Of a stretch of 62,096 nucleotides of DNA, positions 34,162 to 41,173 are shown piece by piece. Position numbers and translations under genes: made by a program. Position 1 is the first letter of the stretch. The number at the start of each line of letters is the position of its first letter. Origin of the DNA: Acidobacteriota bacterium. Its GTDB lineage: Bacteria; Actinomycetota; Acidimicrobiia; Acidimicrobiales; Microtrichaceae. The notes beneath the pieces were generated by a model, which saw nothing but the letters and a program-made list of their open reading frames with translations, had not been told where the DNA came from and ran no database searches. The stretch is from positions 1 to 62,096 of the forward strand of contig QEUP01000020.1 in assembly GCA_003577145.1 (NCBI GenBank), read 5' to 3'.

Positions 34162-35535
34162 ATGACCGACCTGGCCCAGCGACTCAGCGACATCGTCTCT
34201 GCTGACGGCGTGCTCGCCGGCGGCGCCATAAGCGAGGACTACACCCACGACGAGGCCCTCACCGCAGGGCACGTGGTGCCCGATCTCGTCGTGCGGCCGG
34301 CGACCACGGCCGAGGTCGCCGGGGTTCTTCGGTCCGCCAACGAGCAGGGGATCCCGGTGACCGCCCGGGGCAGCGGCACAGGGCTGTCGGGGGCGTGCGT
34401 ACCGAAGTCACGAGGGATCGTGCTGTCGATGGAGAGGATGAACCAGATCCTCGAGATCGACCTCGAGAACCATGTCGCCGTCGTCCAGCCCGGTGTCACC
34501 CTCGATCAACTCGACGAGGCCACCGCGCCCCACGGCCTGATATGCCCGATCTACCCGGGGGAGAGCAGCGCCTCGCTGGGAGGCAACGTCGCCACCAATG
34601 CCGGCGGGATGAGAGCGGTCAAGTACGGCGTCACCCGCCATCAGGTGCTCGGCCTCGAAGCGGTGCTCCCGACGGGTGAGGTCATCCGCAGTGGCGGCAA
34701 GTTCGTGAAGTCCACCAGCGGCTACGACCTCACCCAACTGATAATCGGCTCCGAGGGAACGCTGGCCGTCGTGACCGAGGTGACGCTTCGACTCCATCCC
34801 AGGCTGGCGTACACATCCTGCGTGCTGGCCCCCTTCCGGAGCCTGCGAGAGGTCACCGGGGCAGTCCCGACGATCGTGGGCAGCGGCCTCGACCCGGTGA
34901 TCCTCGAGTACATCGACATGATGTCGATGGCAGCCACCACGGCCAACGTCGGCCTGGAGCTGGGCATACCCGATGAGATCCGCGACGCCGCCCTCGCCTA
35001 CCTGGTGGTCGTCATGGAGAACAGCCGCGCCGACCGGCTGGACGAGGACGTCGCCGCAGTGAGCGAGCTGGTGCTGGAGCTCGGCGCGATGGACGTCTAC
35101 GTGCTGCCACCTCACCCGACTGCACAGCTGCTCGAAGCGCGTGAGAAGGCCTTCTGGGTCGCAAAGCAGAACGGTGCCGACGACATCATCGACGTCGTCG
35201 TGCCGAGAGCCTCGATCCCCGACTACCTGGAGCGGGTCGCCGAGCTGGCGCAGGAACACGCAGCCCTCGTCGCCGGCGCCGGTCACGCCGGCGACGGAAA
35301 CGTCCACCTCGCGATCTTCCAGCCCGACACCGAGAAGCGGGGCGAGCTCATGCGCGGGATACTTGCTGCCGGTCTCGAGCTCGGCGGCGCCATCTCGGCC
35401 GAGCACGGCATCGGATCGGAGAAGCGGCCCTACTTCAACGAGCTCGAGGACCCGGCCAAGCTGGCGCTCATGAGGCGGCTGAAGGCCGCGTTCGACCCGC
35501 AGGGGATACTGAATCCGGGCACGCTCTTCGACTGA
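34162..35535 (+). CDS. glcD: FAD-linked 2-hydroxyacid dehydrogenase (GlcD type)
   Basis: This is a 457-aa flavoprotein of the glycolate oxidase/D-lactate dehydrogenase family. The FAD-binding PCMH domain is clear (TARGSGTGLSGACVP, then GGNVATNAGGMRAVKYGVTRHQVLG and TSGYDLTQLIIGSEGTLAVVTE). The C-terminal FAD-oxidase domain carries HAGDGNVH and EHGIGSEK. It would oxidise glycolate, D-lactate or a related 2-hydroxyacid to the 2-oxoacid. It lies 28 bp upstream of a thiamine-diphosphate enzyme on the same strand, so the product may be passed to that enzyme. No GlcE or GlcF subunit lies nearby. Confidence 0.88.
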   Translation: MTDLAQRLSDIVSADGVLAGGAISEDYTHDEALTAGHVVPDLVVRPATTAEVAGVLRSANEQGIPVTARGSGTGLSGACVPKSRGIVLSMERMNQILEIDLENHVAVVQPGVTLDQLDEATAPHGLICPIYPGESSASLGGNVATNAGGMRAVKYGVTRHQVLGLEAVLPTGEVIRSGGKFVKSTSGYDLTQLIIGSEGTLAVVTEVTLRLHPRLAYTSCVLAPFRSLREVTGAVPTIVGSGLDPVILEYIDMMSMAATTANVGLELGIPDEIRDAALAYLVVVMENSRADRLDEDVAAVSELVLELGAMDVYVLPPHPTAQLLEAREKAFWVAKQNGADDIIDVVVPRASIPDYLERVAELAQEHAALVAGAGHAGDGNVHLAIFQPDTEKRGELMRGILAAGLELGGAISAEHGIGSEKRPYFNELEDPAKLALMRRLKAAFDPQGILNPGTLFD

Positions 35536-35563
35536 TCGGCCCCGCCGGCGACAAGGAGGAAAC

Positions 35564-37117
35564 GTGAAAGGCGCTGAGGCACTGATCAAGACACTCGTAG
35601 ACAGCGGTGTCGAGGTCTGTTTCATGAACCCGGGCACTTCGGAGATGCACTTCGTCGCCGCTCTCGACAGAGTGCCCGGGATGCGCGGCGTGCTCGCGCT
35701 CTTCGAAGGTGTCGCCACGGGTGCAGCCGACGGCTACGCACGCATGACCGGCAAGCCGGCGTCGACCCTCCTGCACCTCGGTCCCGGGCTTGCGAACGGC
35801 TTGGCCAACCTCCACAACGCACGGCGCGGGGCAACACCTGTGGTGAACATCGTCGGCGAGCACGCCACCTACCACAAGCAGTACGACGCCCCGCTCGAGT
35901 CCGACATCGAGGCGATCGCGGGGAACGTGTCCGGTTGGATCATGTGCCCCCGAACGCCCGAGCAGGTCGGCCCCGACGCCTCTGCCGCGGTGGCGGCGTC
36001 CTACGGTCCGCCTGGCCAGGTCGCGACTCTGGTGCTGCCCGCCGACGTCACCTGGCTGGAAGCCGGTGGACCGGCTCCCCCCGCGCCCCACGCGGCGCCG
36101 ACCGAGGTACCCATCGAGCGCGTCGAGGATGTCGCCAAGGTCATGGCGGCCGGCGAGACCTCGGCGCTGCTGGTCGGGGGGTCGGCATCCCGACGAGACG
36201 CCTTGCTGGCCGCCGGGAGGGTGGCCGCGGCATCAGGGGCGAAGCTGCTCGCCGAGACCTTCCCGTCACGCCTCGAGCGAGGCGCCGGACTCCCGGCGGT
36301 CGAGCGGCTGGCGTACCTGGCGGAGTTCATCCTGGCCCAACTCGACGGGATCCGAAACCTGGTGGTCGTCGACACGAGGACACCGGTTGCCTTCTTCGCC
36401 TACCCCGACAAGCCGAGCCTCCTCGTGCCCGAGGGCTGCACGGTCCACCTGCTGGCCGCTCCCGGCGAGGACGCAACCGGCGCGCTCCAGGCGCTCGCCG
36501 ACGTGCTCGGCGCACCCGACGAGGTCGCCACGCAGCCTCCGTCCCGCCCCGATCGGCCCACCGGGGAGATCACCGCCGAGGCGGTCGCCAACGCCATTGG
36601 AGCGTTGCTCCCCGAAGGGGCCATCGTCTCCGACGAGGCCAACACCGCCGGCCTCTGGATACCGGCCGCCACCGCCGGCGCACCCCCCCACGACTGGCTC
36701 TGCCTCACCGGGGGCTCCATCGGCCAGGGCATGCCGGTGGCCACCGGTGCGGCTGTGGCCTGCCCGGACCGGCCCGTCGTCAGCCTCGAGGCCGACGGCA
36801 GCGCCATGTACACGCTCCAGTCCCTTTGGACCCAGGCACGCGAAGGCTTGGATGTGACCACCGTCGTGTTCAACAACGGCTCCTACGCGGTGCTGAACCT
36901 CGAGCTCGCCCGGGTCGGCGCCGAGCCGCCCGGTCCACAGGCCGAAGCCATGCTCGACATCTCCCACCCCGACCTCGACTTCGTGTCGCTGGCACAGGGC
37001 ATGGGTGTGGAGGCATCGAGACCCGAGACGATGGACGAGTTCTGTGACCGGTTCGCCGCGGCGGTCGCCGGCGACGGACCGAACCTGATCGAGGTGGTGC
37101 TCCCCGCGGGGTTCTGA
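35564..37117 (+). CDS. thiamine-diphosphate enzyme (acetolactate synthase/benzoylformate decarboxylase-like)
   Basis: This is a 517-aa protein that begins with GTG 35564 after a perfect AAGGAGGAA site. It has the three-domain ThDP-enzyme plan: the cofactor-activating Glu in FEGVATGAADGYARM, a middle domain, and the ThDP-Mg motif EADGSAMYTLQSLWTQAREG ending in NNGSY. It is shorter than true acetolactate synthases and lacks their FAD-loop features, so a 2-oxoacid decarboxylase or carboligase is more likely. It is paired with the GlcD-like gene upstream; together they could turn a 2-hydroxyacid into an aldehyde or a carboligation product. Confidence 0.88.
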   Translation: MKGAEALIKTLVDSGVEVCFMNPGTSEMHFVAALDRVPGMRGVLALFEGVATGAADGYARMTGKPASTLLHLGPGLANGLANLHNARRGATPVVNIVGEHATYHKQYDAPLESDIEAIAGNVSGWIMCPRTPEQVGPDASAAVAASYGPPGQVATLVLPADVTWLEAGGPAPPAPHAAPTEVPIERVEDVAKVMAAGETSALLVGGSASRRDALLAAGRVAAASGAKLLAETFPSRLERGAGLPAVERLAYLAEFILAQLDGIRNLVVVDTRTPVAFFAYPDKPSLLVPEGCTVHLLAAPGEDATGALQALADVLGAPDEVATQPPSRPDRPTGEITAEAVANAIGALLPEGAIVSDEANTAGLWIPAATAGAPPHDWLCLTGGSIGQGMPVATGAAVACPDRPVVSLEADGSAMYTLQSLWTQAREGLDVTTVVFNNGSYAVLNLELARVGAEPPGPQAEAMLDISHPDLDFVSLAQGMGVEASRPETMDEFCDRFAAAVAGDGPNLIEVVLPAGF

Positions 37118-37157
37118 CCGGCTCCGGTCGGGGGTCATGGTACCGGCGTGGCGTGGG

Positions 37158-38681
37158 TCAACCGGCCGAGCAGACCTGTGGCAGGCGCCTGCGGGGCTCG
37201 GCGACGGTCAGGTCCTCCAGCGTCGCCAAGAGCTCGGCTCTGTCTGGCCCGAGGGCGGGATCGGACCACCGGTTGGACAGCTCGCCCGGGTCCTCGATCA
37301 GGTCGTACAGCTCGCTGTTGGGCGGGTTCACCAGGTCGTGGGTGATCCGGAACCGTTCGGTGGTGAGTGTCCGGAGTTGGAAGACCCCGGGGGCCACGTC
37401 GTCCTCGGTCAGGACATGCGAGCGGGGTTCGCCGAACAGCGAGGTGCCCTCCATGTGCGGCGGCACCTCGAGCCCGCATGACGAGAGCAGGGTGGGCGCC
37501 AGATCGATGGTTCCGACCGGCGCGTCTACCGACCCGCCGACCGCCACGCCGGGGCCGGCCACGATCAGGGGAACCTGCAGCAGGGCCTGGTAGTGGAGCG
37601 GGCCCTTGAGGATCATCTGGTGCTCGCCCATGAAGTCGCCGTGGTCGGAGGTGAAGACGACCAGCGTGTCGTCTGCGAGCCCGGACTCGGTGAGGGCTCC
37701 GAGGATGCGGCCGATGGAGCTGTCGATCTGAGCGATCATGCCCCAGTACGCCGCGAGGATCGAGAGCTGCTCGTGCTCGCTGAAGAGCGCCCAGCCGGGG
37801 TTGGCCCACTCGAGCTCGGTTCCCCGGAAGCCCTGCGTCCAGGCCTGGTGATGGGGCGGCTTGCGGGCGAACTCCTCAGGATGGGCTGCCGGGAGGACCT
37901 CGAGCATGTCCGCGGGTCGGTAGCGGTCGCACCATGGGGCGGGTGGGTCGAAGGGGTGGTGGGGATCGGGGAAGCTGACCCAGCAGAAGAAGGGTCGGTC
38001 GACCTCGCCGAGCCACTCGATGGCGCGGTCGGCGATCCAGTGGGTGTGGTGCTCCTCCTCCGGTAGGTGGTTCCGCCAGGTCTGGGTCGGGTCCCATTCG
38101 CGTCCATCGGCTTCGGGCTGCATGAGCCGCAACCGCTCGACCCCCTTGTCGCGGCCATGGCGGAACAGGTGCCGTCCGTAGTGCAGACCCATGGGCGGTG
38201 GGCCGAAGCCCCAGTTCCAACGCCCCACGGCGGGCGCCAGGCGGATGTTGTGCACATCGGAGGTGAGCTCGACGTGGTCGAACCCGAAGTAGGGCCCGAA
38301 CCAGTCGTGGGCGACGAGCGCGGCGTCGGGCACGGATTCGACCGCCCCGGTGGGGAGATCCGGGTAGTAGGAGGCAAAGTGGGCCTTGCCGAACAACGAG
38401 GTGGAGAAGCCGCCGGTGCTGAAGGCCGCGGCGAGCGACTCCCGGGCCGCTCCGGCCGGCAGGTCGATGCCGTTGCGCACGACGCCGCTGCTGGAGGGGT
38501 ACGTACCGGTGAGGATTGCCGCCCGGGCCGGCATGCAGTAAGGGTTCTGTGTGCGAGCCCGGGTGAAGGTGGTACCCCGGCCGGCCAGCGCGTCGAGGTT
38601 GGGTGTCGCCTCCAGCGCATCGCCGTAGGCGCCGAGCGTCGTGGCCTTGTGCTGGTCGGTGGTGATGAGCAGGACGTTCAC
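37158..38681 (-). CDS. Cys-type sulfatase, first copy
   Basis: This is a 507-aa sulfatase of the alkaline-phosphatase superfamily, taken from GTG 38681 (VNVLLITTDQHK). The formylglycine signature is CMPAR (residues about 49-53, NPYCMPARAAILTG), so the nucleophile is a Cys needing FGE-type maturation. Metal ligands are seen at TTDQH and FTSDHGDFMGEH. There is no signal peptide, so it is cytoplasmic or exported by another route. The substrate is unknown; family members act on sulfated sugars, choline sulfate or alkyl sulfates. A second, divergent sulfatase lies at 47081. tRNA-Leu lies 24 bp upstream of the start. Confidence 0.93.
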   Translation of the reverse strand: MNVLLITTDQHKATTLGAYGDALEATPNLDALAGRGTTFTRARTQNPYCMPARAAILTGTYPSSSGVVRNGIDLPAGAARESLAAAFSTGGFSTSLFGKAHFASYYPDLPTGAVESVPDAALVAHDWFGPYFGFDHVELTSDVHNIRLAPAVGRWNWGFGPPPMGLHYGRHLFRHGRDKGVERLRLMQPEADGREWDPTQTWRNHLPEEEHHTHWIADRAIEWLGEVDRPFFCWVSFPDPHHPFDPPAPWCDRYRPADMLEVLPAAHPEEFARKPPHHQAWTQGFRGTELEWANPGWALFSEHEQLSILAAYWGMIAQIDSSIGRILGALTESGLADDTLVVFTSDHGDFMGEHQMILKGPLHYQALLQVPLIVAGPGVAVGGSVDAPVGTIDLAPTLLSSCGLEVPPHMEGTSLFGEPRSHVLTEDDVAPGVFQLRTLTTERFRITHDLVNPPNSELYDLIEDPGELSNRWSDPALGPDRAELLATLEDLTVAEPRRRLPQVCSAG

Positions 38682-38704
38682 GGGTACCAGCCTTGCCGTT
38701 GCCG

Positions 38705-38791
38705 TGCCCGGGGCGGGATTCGAACCCGCACGGTGGTGGTCCCACCAGGGGGGTTTAAGCCCCCCGCGTCTACCAGTTACGCCACCCGGGC
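38705..38791 (-). tRNA. tRNA-Leu (anticodon UAA)
   Basis: This is an 87-nt class II tRNA on the minus strand. The acceptor stem pairs GCCCGGG (5' end, 38791) with CCCGGGC. The long variable arm and the anticodon loop CUUAAAC identify leucine, and the T-arm has GGTTCGAATCC. The discriminator is A; the CCA end is not encoded. Confidence 0.96.
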
Positions 38792-38884
38792 TCGTCCCAC
38801 CGTATGCCAGGCGCCCCGGGGGGGCTCGTATGGCGTCGGTCTTTGGTCCCCGCTGTGACGAACTGGGGCTGGCTTTGCGTGGCG

Positions 38885-38912
38885 GCTGTCGATAACGTTC
38901 GTTATCGACAGC
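38885..38912. promoter_or_regulatory. perfect palindromic operator candidate upstream of the diiron-ferredoxin operon
   Basis: This 28-bp site has perfect 13-bp arms around a TT centre. The left arm GCTGTCGATAACG spans 38885-38897 and the right arm CGTTATCGACAGC spans 38900-38912. It lies 29 bp before the first ATG of the operon, where a repressor would block the promoter. Such long perfect symmetry is typical of TetR-type dimer-pair sites; the regulator gene is not adjacent. Confidence 0.65.
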
Positions 38913-38941
38913 GTCGAGAGAGGCAACGACGATGGGGGACG

Positions 38942-40042
38942 ATGATGGGGGCAGTCGCCGACCGGTCATATGACCGGCTACCCGAGTACAACCCGCTGGG
39001 CATGCCACTGGACTGGGCCTGGCTGAGAGGGGTCGGCAGCGAGTGGGGGGTGCGTCCCAAGCCCAGCGCCCGGGGCCTCACGATGATGGACATCGCCGTC
39101 GGCAGCTACGGCGAGGTACCGGAGCAGCCACAGCACCGTTCGATGGCCCCGCGGGGATGCGACATCGACGGGGAAACACCCGACATGGGCTACATCCTCA
39201 ACCGCAAGTCCCAGGTCTGGTCCGAGAACGTCGCAGAGCTGTACGAGGAGGCGGTGGCCCGGCAATGGTCAGCCACCCGTGACATCCCCTGGGGCGAGCT
39301 GCGGGAGCTGCCCGACGACATCGAGCACGCCATCTGTCAGCTGTGCACGACCCTCTCCGAGATCGAGATGATCGCCGCTGACCTCCCCGCCAAGTGGATG
39401 TGGCGCATGAACCACGACTTCGTCGAAGCCAAGATGTTCCTCTGCACCCAGATCATGGACGAGGCCCGTCACACCGAGGTCTTCCGCAAGCGGGCGCTGG
39501 CCAACGGAGGCGGTCTGCTCAAATCCCGGTCAGGCGCCTCCAGCCTCCTGCGCACCATCATCGAAGCCAAGACCTATACGCAGGCCTCCGCGCTCATGCA
39601 TCTCCTGGGTGAGGGCTTCATCCTCGACGTCTTCCGCCAGGGCGAGCTGATCGCGCCCACCGATGTCGAGAAGAAGATCTTCCGCATGGCCATGCAGGAC
39701 GAGGCCCGCCACGTCGCCTACGGCACCCTCCACATCCGCTACAGCATCGAGCACGATCCCGACGTCGCCGAGGAGATCCACGAAGCCCTCGACCACGGCG
39801 AGGGTGTGCTCATGGAGTTCGGCACCCAGCCCGACCTCACCACGGCCATTGCCCTACTGCTCGCCGGCAGCGCCGACGACGTCGAGGAGAAGGGGTTCCC
39901 GATGCAGCAGGCGATGGCGGTCAAGCTCCTCACCTCCTATCTGGCTCGCTGCGAACGGGCCGGCTTGAACCGGCTCGAGCGCACTCTCCTTCCCGTCGAG
40001 ATGCTCGGGATCGACCGGCAACAAGGCATCCCCGCGGCGTGA
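38942..40042 (+). CDS. ferritin-like diiron-carboxylate protein (likely oxygenase)
   Basis: This is a 366-aa helical protein of ribonucleotide-reductase-R2/AurF-like type. The four-helix diiron ligand pattern is visible: Glu140 or Glu142 (TLSEIEMIA), ExxH at 174-177 (DEARH), Glu224 (GEGFILDVF) and ExxH at 254-257 (DEARH again). These spacings match a carboxylate-bridged diiron site. The next genes encode an SCP2-like protein, a zinc ribbon and a ferredoxin, suggesting an oxygenase with a dedicated electron donor and a lipid-like substrate. The start is ATG 38942, with an adjacent second ATG at 38945. A perfect palindrome precedes it. The substrate is unknown. Confidence 0.82.
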   Translation: MMGAVADRSYDRLPEYNPLGMPLDWAWLRGVGSEWGVRPKPSARGLTMMDIAVGSYGEVPEQPQHRSMAPRGCDIDGETPDMGYILNRKSQVWSENVAELYEEAVARQWSATRDIPWGELRELPDDIEHAICQLCTTLSEIEMIAADLPAKWMWRMNHDFVEAKMFLCTQIMDEARHTEVFRKRALANGGGLLKSRSGASSLLRTIIEAKTYTQASALMHLLGEGFILDVFRQGELIAPTDVEKKIFRMAMQDEARHVAYGTLHIRYSIEHDPDVAEEIHEALDHGEGVLMEFGTQPDLTTAIALLLAGSADDVEEKGFPMQQAMAVKLLTSYLARCERAGLNRLERTLLPVEMLGIDRQQGIPAA

Positions 40043-40055
40043 GGAGGCAGCGATC

Positions 40056-40508
40056 ATGACCGAGGGCAATCGCATCGACAGCGTCGACTTCTTCGACAGC
40101 CTGGCTGCCAACATGAACTCACGACCGACCGAGTACGAGGTGCTGGGCGACGTGGACATCGACCTGGGCCTGCTCATGCGCCGTCGCGACGACGGGGACT
40201 TCCGGCTCCGCCTCCGCTTCGAGGGCATCGAGTGCACCGGCGTTGCAGAGGCCGAGGACGGCGACGAGAAGCTGGCCGACTGCTATCTCGACGGAGACAT
40301 CGACGCCTGGCAGGCGATGTTCGATGACATCGCCGACAACGGCCGAGCCGTGGGACGCCAGACGATCAACAGCCTGACCCTTGTCGGCGAGGCGATCCGG
40401 GTGCGGGGCGATGATCCGCTCGGGATCGACAAGTTCTTCCGCTACAACCAGACAATGCAGGCCTTCTTGGACGGTGCGGCTCAGCTCGCGTCGGCCGGGG
40501 CAGGCTGA
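40056..40508 (+). CDS. SCP2-like sterol/lipid-binding domain protein
   Basis: This is a 150-aa cytoplasmic protein, 13 bp after the diiron gene. The alternating beta-strand pattern (DVDIDLGLLMRRRDDGDFRL, then LADCYLDGDIDAWQAMFDDI and NSLTLVGEAIRV) resembles the SCP2 sterol-carrier fold, in which a hydrophobic cavity holds sterols or acyl chains. It could present a lipid to the neighbouring diiron enzyme. Resemblance is moderate; an unrelated small alpha/beta fold is possible. The position in the operon is certain. Confidence 0.6.
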   Translation: MTEGNRIDSVDFFDSLAANMNSRPTEYEVLGDVDIDLGLLMRRRDDGDFRLRLRFEGIECTGVAEAEDGDEKLADCYLDGDIDAWQAMFDDIADNGRAVGRQTINSLTLVGEAIRVRGDDPLGIDKFFRYNQTMQAFLDGAAQLASAGAG

Positions 40509-40519
40509 AGGGATCAGTC

Positions 40520-40720
40520 ATGGACGCACCGACCTGTCCCTCCTGTGGGGACGCCCTCACCCGGGTGCTCGACCTCCCGTATGGTTACTGGGAGTGGAAC
40601 GGGACAGAATACGAGCTCAAGAGCACCTCACAGAGGGTCGACGTGGCACCATGGGCCTGCGCCGGATGTCTCGGCGAGCTACGCGACTTCCATCCTCAGG
40701 ACAAGGTCTCCAGGACCTGA
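40520..40720 (+). CDS. 66-aa zinc-ribbon protein
   Basis: This is a tiny protein with two CxxC knuckles, CPSCGD near residue 6 and CAGC near residue 47, joined by a Trp/Tyr-rich stretch (YGYWEWNGTEY). The two pairs should bind one zinc or iron, rubredoxin-like in spacing only. It is 11 bp after the SCP2-like gene and 33 bp before the ferredoxin. It may be an electron-transfer or assembly partner for the diiron enzyme. The start ATG 40520 follows an AGGGATCA stretch. Confidence 0.7.
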   Translation: MDAPTCPSCGDALTRVLDLPYGYWEWNGTEYELKSTSQRVDVAPWACAGCLGELRDFHPQDKVSRT

Positions 40721-40753
40721 AGGGCAGACGATGAACGCCGACGGAGACAGCAC

Positions 40754-41173
40754 GTGAGCCACAAGGTCGTCGAGGAGGCCTGCATCGGCTGCGGCGGATG
40801 CGAGTACGCCTGCCCGACCGGTGCGCTGCGCAAGACCGATTCGTTCCTCGGGCTGTTCGTGATCAACCCACTCACCTGCAACGACTGCGGGGAATGCGTC
40901 GACAAGTGCCCGACTGACGCCATCATGCCCGACCCCGATTGGGTCGAGTGCAACAACACCGGCTGCCCTCTCACGTCGAAACGGCTGGCCGACATCGAGT
41001 GCTCGGTCTGGCAGGATCGCTGCCCCGAGTGCAAGACGACGCTGTGGCGCAGCGCCGAGGGCGACTGGGAATGCCCGCGCTGCGGCATGGGTCGCAAGGT
41101 GCAGTGCCCCCGCACCCACCGTCTCGACGAGATCAAGGCGCGCTATCCCGAGGTCATCTCCTCGACGATCTGA
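40754..41173 (+). CDS. 2x[4Fe-4S] ferredoxin with C-terminal zinc ribbon
   Basis: This is a 139-aa protein from GTG 40754. Residues about 8-58 are a bacterial two-cluster ferredoxin: CIGCGGCEYACP and CNDCGECVDKCP. The rest contains a further Cys pair (CNNTGC) and two zinc-type knuckles (CPEC and CPRC), a fusion not usual in simple ferredoxins. It ends the diiron operon and is the most likely electron donor for it. The last gene ends 11 bp from a convergent minus-strand gene. Confidence 0.9.
   Translation: MSHKVVEEACIGCGGCEYACPTGALRKTDSFLGLFVINPLTCNDCGECVDKCPTDAIMPDPDWVECNNTGCPLTSKRLADIECSVWQDRCPECKTTLWRSAEGDWECPRCGMGRKVQCPRTHRLDEIKARYPEVISSTI

Follow-up and report, generated by a model that had tools for sequence, protein, structure and literature searches.

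Contig QEUP01000020.1 (62,096 bp, hereafter the window), one contig (C45) of a 4.05 Mb source genome that comprises 68 contigs and is 96.6% complete, carries a cassette of four genes encoding a ferritin-like diiron protein (DI), a predicted SCP2-fold protein (SCP), a small zinc-ribbon-like protein (ZNR) and a ferredoxin (FD). We lean towards regarding the cassette as a ferredoxin-dependent diiron monooxygenase system that would act at low oxygen on a hydrophobic substrate, of acyl or isoprenoid type, which an SCP2-like carrier presents. This reading is built on the linkage of the genes, the conservation of the ligands, the predicted folds, the iron-sulfur cluster motifs and the promoter sites described below.

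Conservation and distribution of the cassette

One scan of GTDB species genomes revealed 46 loci with a DI homologue (71-79% identity), labelled Acidimicrobiia, Actinomycetes, Actinomycetota metagenome-assembled genomes (MAGs) and similar, with one labelled Proteobacteria; records labelled Candidatus Microthrix were among the cassette-bearing genomes. Locus L034 and most of loci L148-L158 repeat genomes within these 46 and were not recounted. The order DI-SCP-ZNR-FD was complete in 40 of the 46 loci, and contig ends explain five incomplete ones (FD is truncated in L049; L053, L061, L074 and L083 end before FD). The genes were not found lying apart in most genomes, and the four-gene cassette of the initial annotation is borne out as a conserved unit. 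The same order in related loci rules out chance open reading frames (ORFs) as the origin of the cassette.

A DI-profile match at E <= 1e-30 was found in 33 of 345 surveyed genomes of the class, and 12 of these, the source genome included, score as subfamily A, to which the cassette belongs. A sample of 396 genomes from the phylum gave 11 matches at E <= 1e-25, among which the seven that carry the label of the same phylum reach at most 256 bits, as compared with at least 720 bits for the twelve subfamily A genomes. The cassette is a patchily distributed unit, limited to the window's class in the sampled genomes.

The source genome has two DI paralogues. Among the 14 subfamily B loci examined, ten contain DI-SCP-FD without ZNR, two contain DI-SCP (the source genome included) and two contain DI alone; ZNR was found in none of the 14 and is confined to subfamily A cassettes. 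The subfamily C gene of the source genome is accompanied by genes for hydantoinases A and B and by two Amidohydro_2 genes; at two of the three other subfamily C loci, both amidohydrolases and hydantoinase B have homologues. Neither SCP nor FD was detected at the seven subfamily D loci. Damaged cassettes were seen in two MAGs (L169, with a frameshift, and L175, where SCP was not detected) and may be pseudogenes or assembly errors.

The diiron protein DI

The putative metal ligands of DI are E142, E174, H177, E224, E254 and H257. All six are invariant in 59/59 aligned homologues (33 of subfamily A, 14 of B, 4 of C, 7 of D and one TetR-linked relative); the subfamily A input to both the structure prediction and the ligand alignment was 33 of 45 complete proteins. 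The core of the predicted structure (residues 121-352) could be superimposed on aldehyde-deformylating oxygenase (ADO; VIA Z 23.3, rmsd 2.2, 210 residues), on VlmB-type proteins (Z of about 22 across 248-255 residues), on R2lox (Z 18.9) and on the hydroxylase of soluble methane monooxygenase (sMMO; Z 18.8). A Pfam scan at E <= 1 gave only DUF455, Ribonuc_red_sm and a herpes family, the ADO family being absent among these matches, and the profile matches in PDB included R2lox and a VlmB homologue. NCBIfam R2lox models match 33/33 members, the DI of the window scoring 40.9 bits against a curated cut-off of 194.

These data support a predicted ferritin-like diiron fold of DI with all six ligands. 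The four ligand helices (E, ExxH, E, ExxH) named in the initial annotation agree with this; the presence of a diiron pocket was judged by ligand conservation and the fold match.

SCP and FD

The predicted structure of SCP (pLDDT, the model's confidence score, 93.0) has as its best PDB match the Thermus SCP2 protein TT1886 (1wfr; Foldseek E 3.9e-6, TM-score 0.69), and it also matches 2cx7 (Foldseek E 3.1e-5); a sequence profile reaches SCP2 structures at E 0.3 only. The predicted fold is thus that of the SCP2-like protein named earlier.

FD contains two CxxCxxCxxxC motifs for [4Fe-4S] clusters (C10/13/16/20 and C42/45/48/52; Pfam Fer4, E 2.4e-13). Altogether 16 cysteines are invariant in 36/36 aligned ferredoxins (27 of subfamily A, 8 of B and one of C). 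The alignment includes 27 of the 41 subfamily A proteins (that of the window and 40 others), and the count omits the subfamily B ferredoxins L159 and L165 as well as L169, whose cassette is frameshifted and whose shortened reading has serine at one cysteine position. We infer that the eight further cysteines form two quartets, C66/C71/C83/C118 and C90/C93/C107/C110 (the ribbon), which are putative sites for zinc, iron or a third cluster. The cysteines for both parts of the two-cluster ferredoxin with a zinc-ribbon tail that had been described are present, and FD has four conserved cysteines more than the clusters and the ribbon require. The FD profile was found in 7/7 tested genomes with the oxygenase family and in 0/2 without it.

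A DevR/OsdR-type box in the cassette promoters

A de novo palindromic motif search was performed on 42 upstream regions, five others having been dropped (four near-duplicates and one of 31 nt). It revealed the motif AGGGnCnnnnGnCCCT at -73 to -137, with log-odds of at least 6.4 in 36/42 promoters. The total log-likelihood was 193, as compared with 27-37 in three shuffled sets, a gap that is somewhat generous since each shuffled set was given 10 starts and the data 40. The box was not detected in six promoters: those of the window, L039, L062 (with just 96 nt upstream), L066, L078 and L084. When 18 subfamily B/C promoters, none of them part of the motif search, were scored in the same way, nine exceeded the shuffled 99th percentile (7.9) and seven the shuffle maximum (10.9).

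The motif emerged without the use of a DosR consensus. When compared with what we take to be the DosR consensus of M. tuberculosis, a mean of 12.8 positions matched against 11.7 in shuffles, a slight excess only. The cassette motif agrees with the OsdR consensus AGGGCCGATCGGCCCT given in PMC5069765, in which a narG2 site reads AGGGACCTTCGGCCCC.

One box precedes a small ORF; the next gene encodes a DevR-like regulator, and the sole HisKA_3 match of that genome lies beside it. The best PDB match of the regulator of this operon is DevR (3c3w, E 2.3e-62), ahead of VraR (E 2.7e-36). A DevR-like regulator was found at E <= 1e-67 in 9/9 tested genomes. In the source genome, which is one of these, the gene adjoins those of a PAS-type kinase and universal-stress-like proteins (names read from sequence), and three box-like sites are located in one gap about 4 kb from it. 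A DevR-type box was also seen 70 nt before the start of a Sec-dependent nitrous-oxide reductase gene (TIGR04246, 799 bits, above the cut-off) in an Acidimicrobiia-type genome (L206:196-2181, minus strand; G237:C29).

The inverted repeat before DI and its predicted regulator

An inverted repeat is located upstream of DI in the window. As stated in the initial annotation, its 13-nt arms (38885-38897 and 38900-38912) are 100% complementary and it ends 29 nt ahead of the in-frame ATG; the description as a perfect 28-bp palindrome goes slightly too far, because a 2-nt TT spacer leaves 26/28 bases paired. The core GATAACG-NN-CGTTATC (GATAACGNNCGTTATC) occurs in the source genome at three exact and two one-mismatch sites, and at up to two mismatches there are 11 sites against one for the reversed control. 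In ten other genomes, 11 sites with at most one mismatch were found in five, the control giving 0 in all ten. This excess of copies over the controls, in the source genome and in the ten others, rules out a chance palindrome.

The five best sites in the source genome precede the cassette, a gntR-DI-SCP operon, a tetR gene that lies ahead of an enoyl-CoA hydratase gene, and two type II dimethyl sulfoxide (DMSO) reductase alpha-like genes (TIGR03479, below cut-off). The tested DMSO-reductase alpha-like protein has ethylbenzene dehydrogenase as its best PDB match (2ivf, E 1e-192); these palindrome-fronted molybdenum-enzyme genes score under the NCBIfam cut-offs. Of the 11 sites in other genomes, five precede cassettes of subfamily A or B. 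Of the remainder, one each is found before a TetR orthologue (53%), an orthologue of a DMSO-reductase-like gene (86% over 478 residues) and FAD oxidoreductase genes, two stand before ORFs that read as integrase-like, and one is unassigned. At up to one mismatch the palindrome is present in 9/47 subfamily A promoters (at -47 to -51) and before 2/14 subfamily B genes (at -48).

TetR orthologues were found in 6/6 palindrome-positive and 1/5 palindrome-negative genomes; a TetR search was weak in G141 and gave none in G063, both genomes lying outside the palindrome scan. The 16-mer stands closely upstream of 7/9 TetR genes at 1-3 mismatches, and 5/9 TetR genes are followed by another diiron-type gene, the one tested being a sub-threshold AurF match. 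The co-occurrence with TetR and the 16-mer before the TetR genes make a TetR operator the most likely identity of the palindrome. The regulator could instead be the GntR-family protein of the C26 operon of the source genome, since the gntR gene of that operon has an exact site directly in front of it and subfamily B locus L166 likewise has a gntR gene before DI. We regard this as improbable: the 260 nt upstream of the L166 gntR gene contain no visible site and its genome, G065, has none at up to one mismatch, and both the distribution of the TetR orthologues, a profile test with no GntR counterpart, and the 16-mer before TetR genes point away from GntR.

The initial annotation had taken the palindrome for the cassette's own regulator site, as part of an oxygenase with its own electron donor and substrate carrier. 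The linked ferredoxin and the SCP2 fold are in keeping with that description; the palindrome is not, since it is present in a minority of the cassette promoters, fronts other genes and has its predicted TetR encoded elsewhere. By sequence, the DevR/OsdR-type box, which the initial annotation does not mention, is the more widely conserved promoter site of the cassette.

Several further observations concern these sites. In the related genomes G237 (C74:31607) and G342 (C22:162251) the palindrome lies 21-32 nt before tyrosine-recombinase/integrase-like ORFs. In L303:4980-9165 (G069:C74) a palindrome-fronted FAD oxidoreductase gene is followed by a similar second one and then by a gene for a 172-aa protein that is SCP2-like by reading and has no Pfam match, an FD-like gene being located about 11 kb off (G069:C74:45852). 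On C26 (L009:3878-6941) three minus-strand genes diverge from the gntR-DI-SCP operon, with the palindrome in between; one encodes a DUF455 member (E 2.4e-17) and two have no Pfam match, one of the latter being ferritin-like by reading. Another repeat, GTGAGAC...GTCTCAC, unrelated to the palindrome, is present at about -51 to -91 in 13/47 cassette promoters (L041, L043, L049, L051, L055-L057, L062, L064, L067, L068, L074 and L083).

Setting of the cassette in the window

The features of the cassette are collected in Table 1. The four ORFs, their order and the gaps between them (DI/SCP 13 bp, SCP/ZNR 11 bp, ZNR/FD 33 bp) were reproduced from the ORF coordinates as first reported.

Table 1. Genes and promoter sites of the cassette (positions in the window)
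Feature	Position	Strand	Basis
Degenerate DevR/OsdR-like box TCGGTCTTTGGTCCCC, -106 from DI start	38836-38851	+	Position weight matrix (PWM) score 4.1
Inverted repeat, core 38891-38906 GATAACGTTCGTTATC, predicted TetR-family operator at -51	38885-38912		Complementarity, copies, TetR co-occurrence
DI, ferritin-like diiron oxygenase-type protein, 366 aa	38942-40042	+	ORF list; in-frame ATG at 38942
SCP, SCP2-fold protein, 150 aa, putative hydrophobic-substrate carrier	40056-40508	+	ORF; predicted fold
ZNR, 66-aa zinc-ribbon-like protein with CxxC and (C/H)xxC motifs, putative zinc site	40520-40720	+	ORF; alignment
FD, 139-aa ferredoxin, GTG start	40754-41173	+	ORF; Pfam; cysteine conservation

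In 1-kb intervals the G+C content is 0.646-0.672 in the cassette, 0.657-0.686 in the downstream flank and 0.689-0.726 in the upstream flank; the cassette is close to the former flank and slightly under the latter, and the idea of a recently acquired island was set aside. A tRNA-Leu gene (anticodon taa) at 38704-38791 on the minus strand ends about 150 nt ahead of the DI start. The cassette lies on its 5' side, unlike typical 3'-end integration. The ORFs upstream (34162-38700), with names read from sequence, include an FAD-linked oxidase (34162-35535), a thiamine-diphosphate enzyme (35564-37117) and, on the minus strand from 37158 onward, a sulfatase-like ORF. A bacterial RNase P class A RNA is located at 231-609 on the plus strand (Rfam RF00010, 230.6 bits).

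An anti-phage defence module, as patchy distribution and variable neighbours might suggest, was also considered and rejected. PADLOC models gave no match for DI, SCP or ZNR and one weak match for FD, in its Fe-S part, to 42 residues of BrxP (E 5e-5).

Proposed function

The metals, the O2 chemistry, the class of substrate, the path of electrons and the binding and signals of the regulators are inferred from the features above. DI would bind two metals through its six conserved ligands, and SCP, given its predicted fold, may hold or present a hydrophobic substrate. FD could deliver electrons to the diiron site for O2 activation, as its linkage, co-occurrence and cluster motifs suggest, and would itself be reduced by a cellular ferredoxin reductase encoded outside the cassette. 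ZNR is perhaps a small structural or docking subunit, specific to this subfamily. In most lineages a DevR/OsdR-type response regulator would act at the box, located about 73-137 nt upstream of the start, to induce the cassette at low oxygen or in the presence of nitric oxide (NO). In a subset that includes the window, a TetR-family regulator may occupy the palindrome, roughly 50 nt upstream of the start, and be released by a lipid-like ligand. The sites and the partner genes of both regulators are present in the genomes; their binding, the signal and the ligand are proposed.

In subfamily A, conserved neighbours were also examined as a guide to the substrate and gave none, since they vary by lineage. 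Fatty-acid desaturase genes (two homology clusters) are found near the cassette in 14 subfamily A loci, and a cluster of acyl-CoA dehydrogenases in 15. Along with the ADO-like core of DI and the SCP2 fold, these genes speak for a substrate of the acyl or isoprenoid type. Use at low oxygen is favoured by the DevR-type box, some copies of which precede cytochrome oxidase, NosZ, PCuAC, CBS and PNPOx genes and the operon of a DevR-like regulator. The occurrence of molybdenum enzymes behind the same palindrome hints that O2-dependent and O2-independent attack on related substrates may share control.

A number of observations weigh against this interpretation. The DI model, predicted from a 33-row alignment, has a mean pLDDT of 69.0, with residues 31-63 and 83-107 below 50, and Foldseek found nothing for it at E <= 0.001 (best E 0.0036). 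SCP has no match to Pfam SCP2 and only a sub-threshold phage-tail match. Locus L040 has no FD next to ZNR though its contig continues, and two subfamily B loci are DI-SCP without FD. The genes flanking subfamily A cassettes differ by lineage, and acyl-CoA dehydrogenases are abundant genes generally. PWM scoring gave no convincing DevR box in the window's own promoter: the score lies below the 90th percentile of shuffled promoters (4.8), orthologues mostly scoring 9-14 at equal distance, and the box of the window has probably decayed. A loose box pattern was not enriched, with 54 sites against 81 for the reversed control in nine genomes and 9 against 16 in the source genome. The genes adjacent to boxes come from 13 stretches picked by eye, mostly with A/T-rich centres, from which ten proteins were taken to Pfam; these matched cytochrome oxidase subunit II, di-haem peroxidase/MauG, a weak cupredoxin, SDR, Amidohydro_2, PCuAC, the nos propeller (NosZ), CBS and PNPOx, one having no match. 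The cassette had also been called self-contained, which goes too far: no ferredoxin reductase is part of it, and the genome of L040 (G063) has its one FD-like gene elsewhere.

The same features can be read in other ways. The cassette might be biosynthetic, with DI working under oxygen shortage to desaturate, hydroxylate or deformylate a membrane lipid, quinone or hopanoid made by the cell itself, and the nearby desaturase genes, the resemblance of the DI core to ADO and the lack of fixed catabolic neighbours in subfamily A would suit such a role. We consider it possible but unlikely, as subfamily C accompanies amidohydrolase and hydantoinase genes, the palindrome fronts ethylbenzene-dehydrogenase-like molybdenum enzymes of catabolic or respiratory appearance, and a patchy distribution (12/345 class genomes) is unusual for a core lipid step. 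A protective role, in which FD would supply DI with electrons for the reduction of O2, peroxide or NO in the manner of rubrerythrin-type or flavodiiron systems, seems distinctly improbable to us. The hypoxia/NO-type box speaks for it, as does the presence of some boxes before respiratory oxidase, NosZ and di-haem peroxidase/MauG-like genes, but the constant SCP2-fold partner has no obvious part in gas detoxification and the core fold is nearest to substrate-oxidising enzymes.

Returning to the ferredoxin-dependent monooxygenase, a more far-reaching version of it can be formulated, to which we give little credence at present. A lipid-sensing TetR, layered with a DevR-type oxygen sensor, might control two hydroxylases for the same kind of water-insoluble substrate, namely the O2-dependent oxygenase with its diiron protein, SCP2-type carrier and 16-cysteine ferredoxin, and a water-dependent molybdenum hydroxylase of the ethylbenzene/steroid-C25-dehydrogenase type. 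If this were true, a cell could open one inert C-H bond with or without oxygen, and the oxygenase involved would rely on an SCP2-type protein dedicated to carrying its substrate and on a ferredoxin bearing two additional Cys4 sites.

If the monooxygenase reading is correct, the cassette represents a new type of multi-part diiron oxygenase in which a dedicated carrier is combined with an unusual ferredoxin. Its promoters would then belong to a low-oxygen programme of Acidimicrobiia-type actinobacteria, including those with Candidatus Microthrix records. Two points would become testable: which hydrophobic compound these bacteria, known mostly from metagenomes, oxidise at the oxic/anoxic edge, and whether the DevR-type hypoxia response reaches past mycobacteria and streptomycetes. 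Given the co-regulated molybdenum enzyme, it may also be asked whether one regulon pairs oxygen-dependent with oxygen-independent hydroxylation.

Comparison with known systems

The single proteins belong to known superfamilies. No description of the gene set, the 16-cysteine ferredoxin or the double control, and no published DevR/OsdR-type regulon containing the cassette, was found in the literature searched (titles and abstract openings, with few subscription journals covered).

ADO, a diiron enzyme with fatty substrates and with ferredoxin as its electron source, is the best structural match of the DI core (PDB 4rc7, 4kvq), and its six ligands presumably have the same order and nearly equal spacing as those of DI. 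The two differ in that identity is about 14%, DI carries roughly 120 additional N-terminal residues, and ADO pairs with an acyl-ACP reductase whereas DI pairs with an SCP2-like partner; none of the four cassette proteins resembled an acyl-ACP/CoA reductase, no genome-wide search for one having been made. R2lox, whose hallmarks are a Mn/Fe site and a Tyr-Val crosslink, and VlmB-type proteins are the closest sequence-profile matches of DI, yet DI stays far under the R2lox cut-off and, unlike them, has the fixed partner genes SCP, ZNR and FD. Bacterial multicomponent monooxygenases (sMMO, toluene monooxygenase) have a second hydroxylase subunit and an effector protein in the operon; in contrast, the conserved unit here consists only of DI, SCP, ZNR and FD, without either of these.

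SCP shares its predicted fold with SCP2 proteins (TT1886, 1wfr, 2cx7) and differs from them in being operon-bound to an oxygenase and in lacking a Pfam SCP2 match. FD has the two CxxCxxCxxxC motifs in common with 2[4Fe-4S] ferredoxins of the FdxA type, but contains eight additional invariant cysteines and scores 48.6 bits against an NCBIfam FdxA cut-off of 65.

Ethylbenzene dehydrogenase and steroid C25 dehydrogenase, of the type II DMSO-reductase family, are molybdenum enzymes that use water and not O2; alpha-subunit-like genes of this kind are palindrome-fronted in two genomes, and would be regulon companions rather than relatives of DI. According to PMC6016249, steroid C25 dehydrogenases hydroxylate sterol side chains using water. 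With the DevR/DosR and OsdR regulons the cassette shares a palindromic box of the OsdR consensus, found in 36/42 of its promoters, and a DevR-like regulator, encoded in 9/9 genomes; the window departs from them in its degenerate box.

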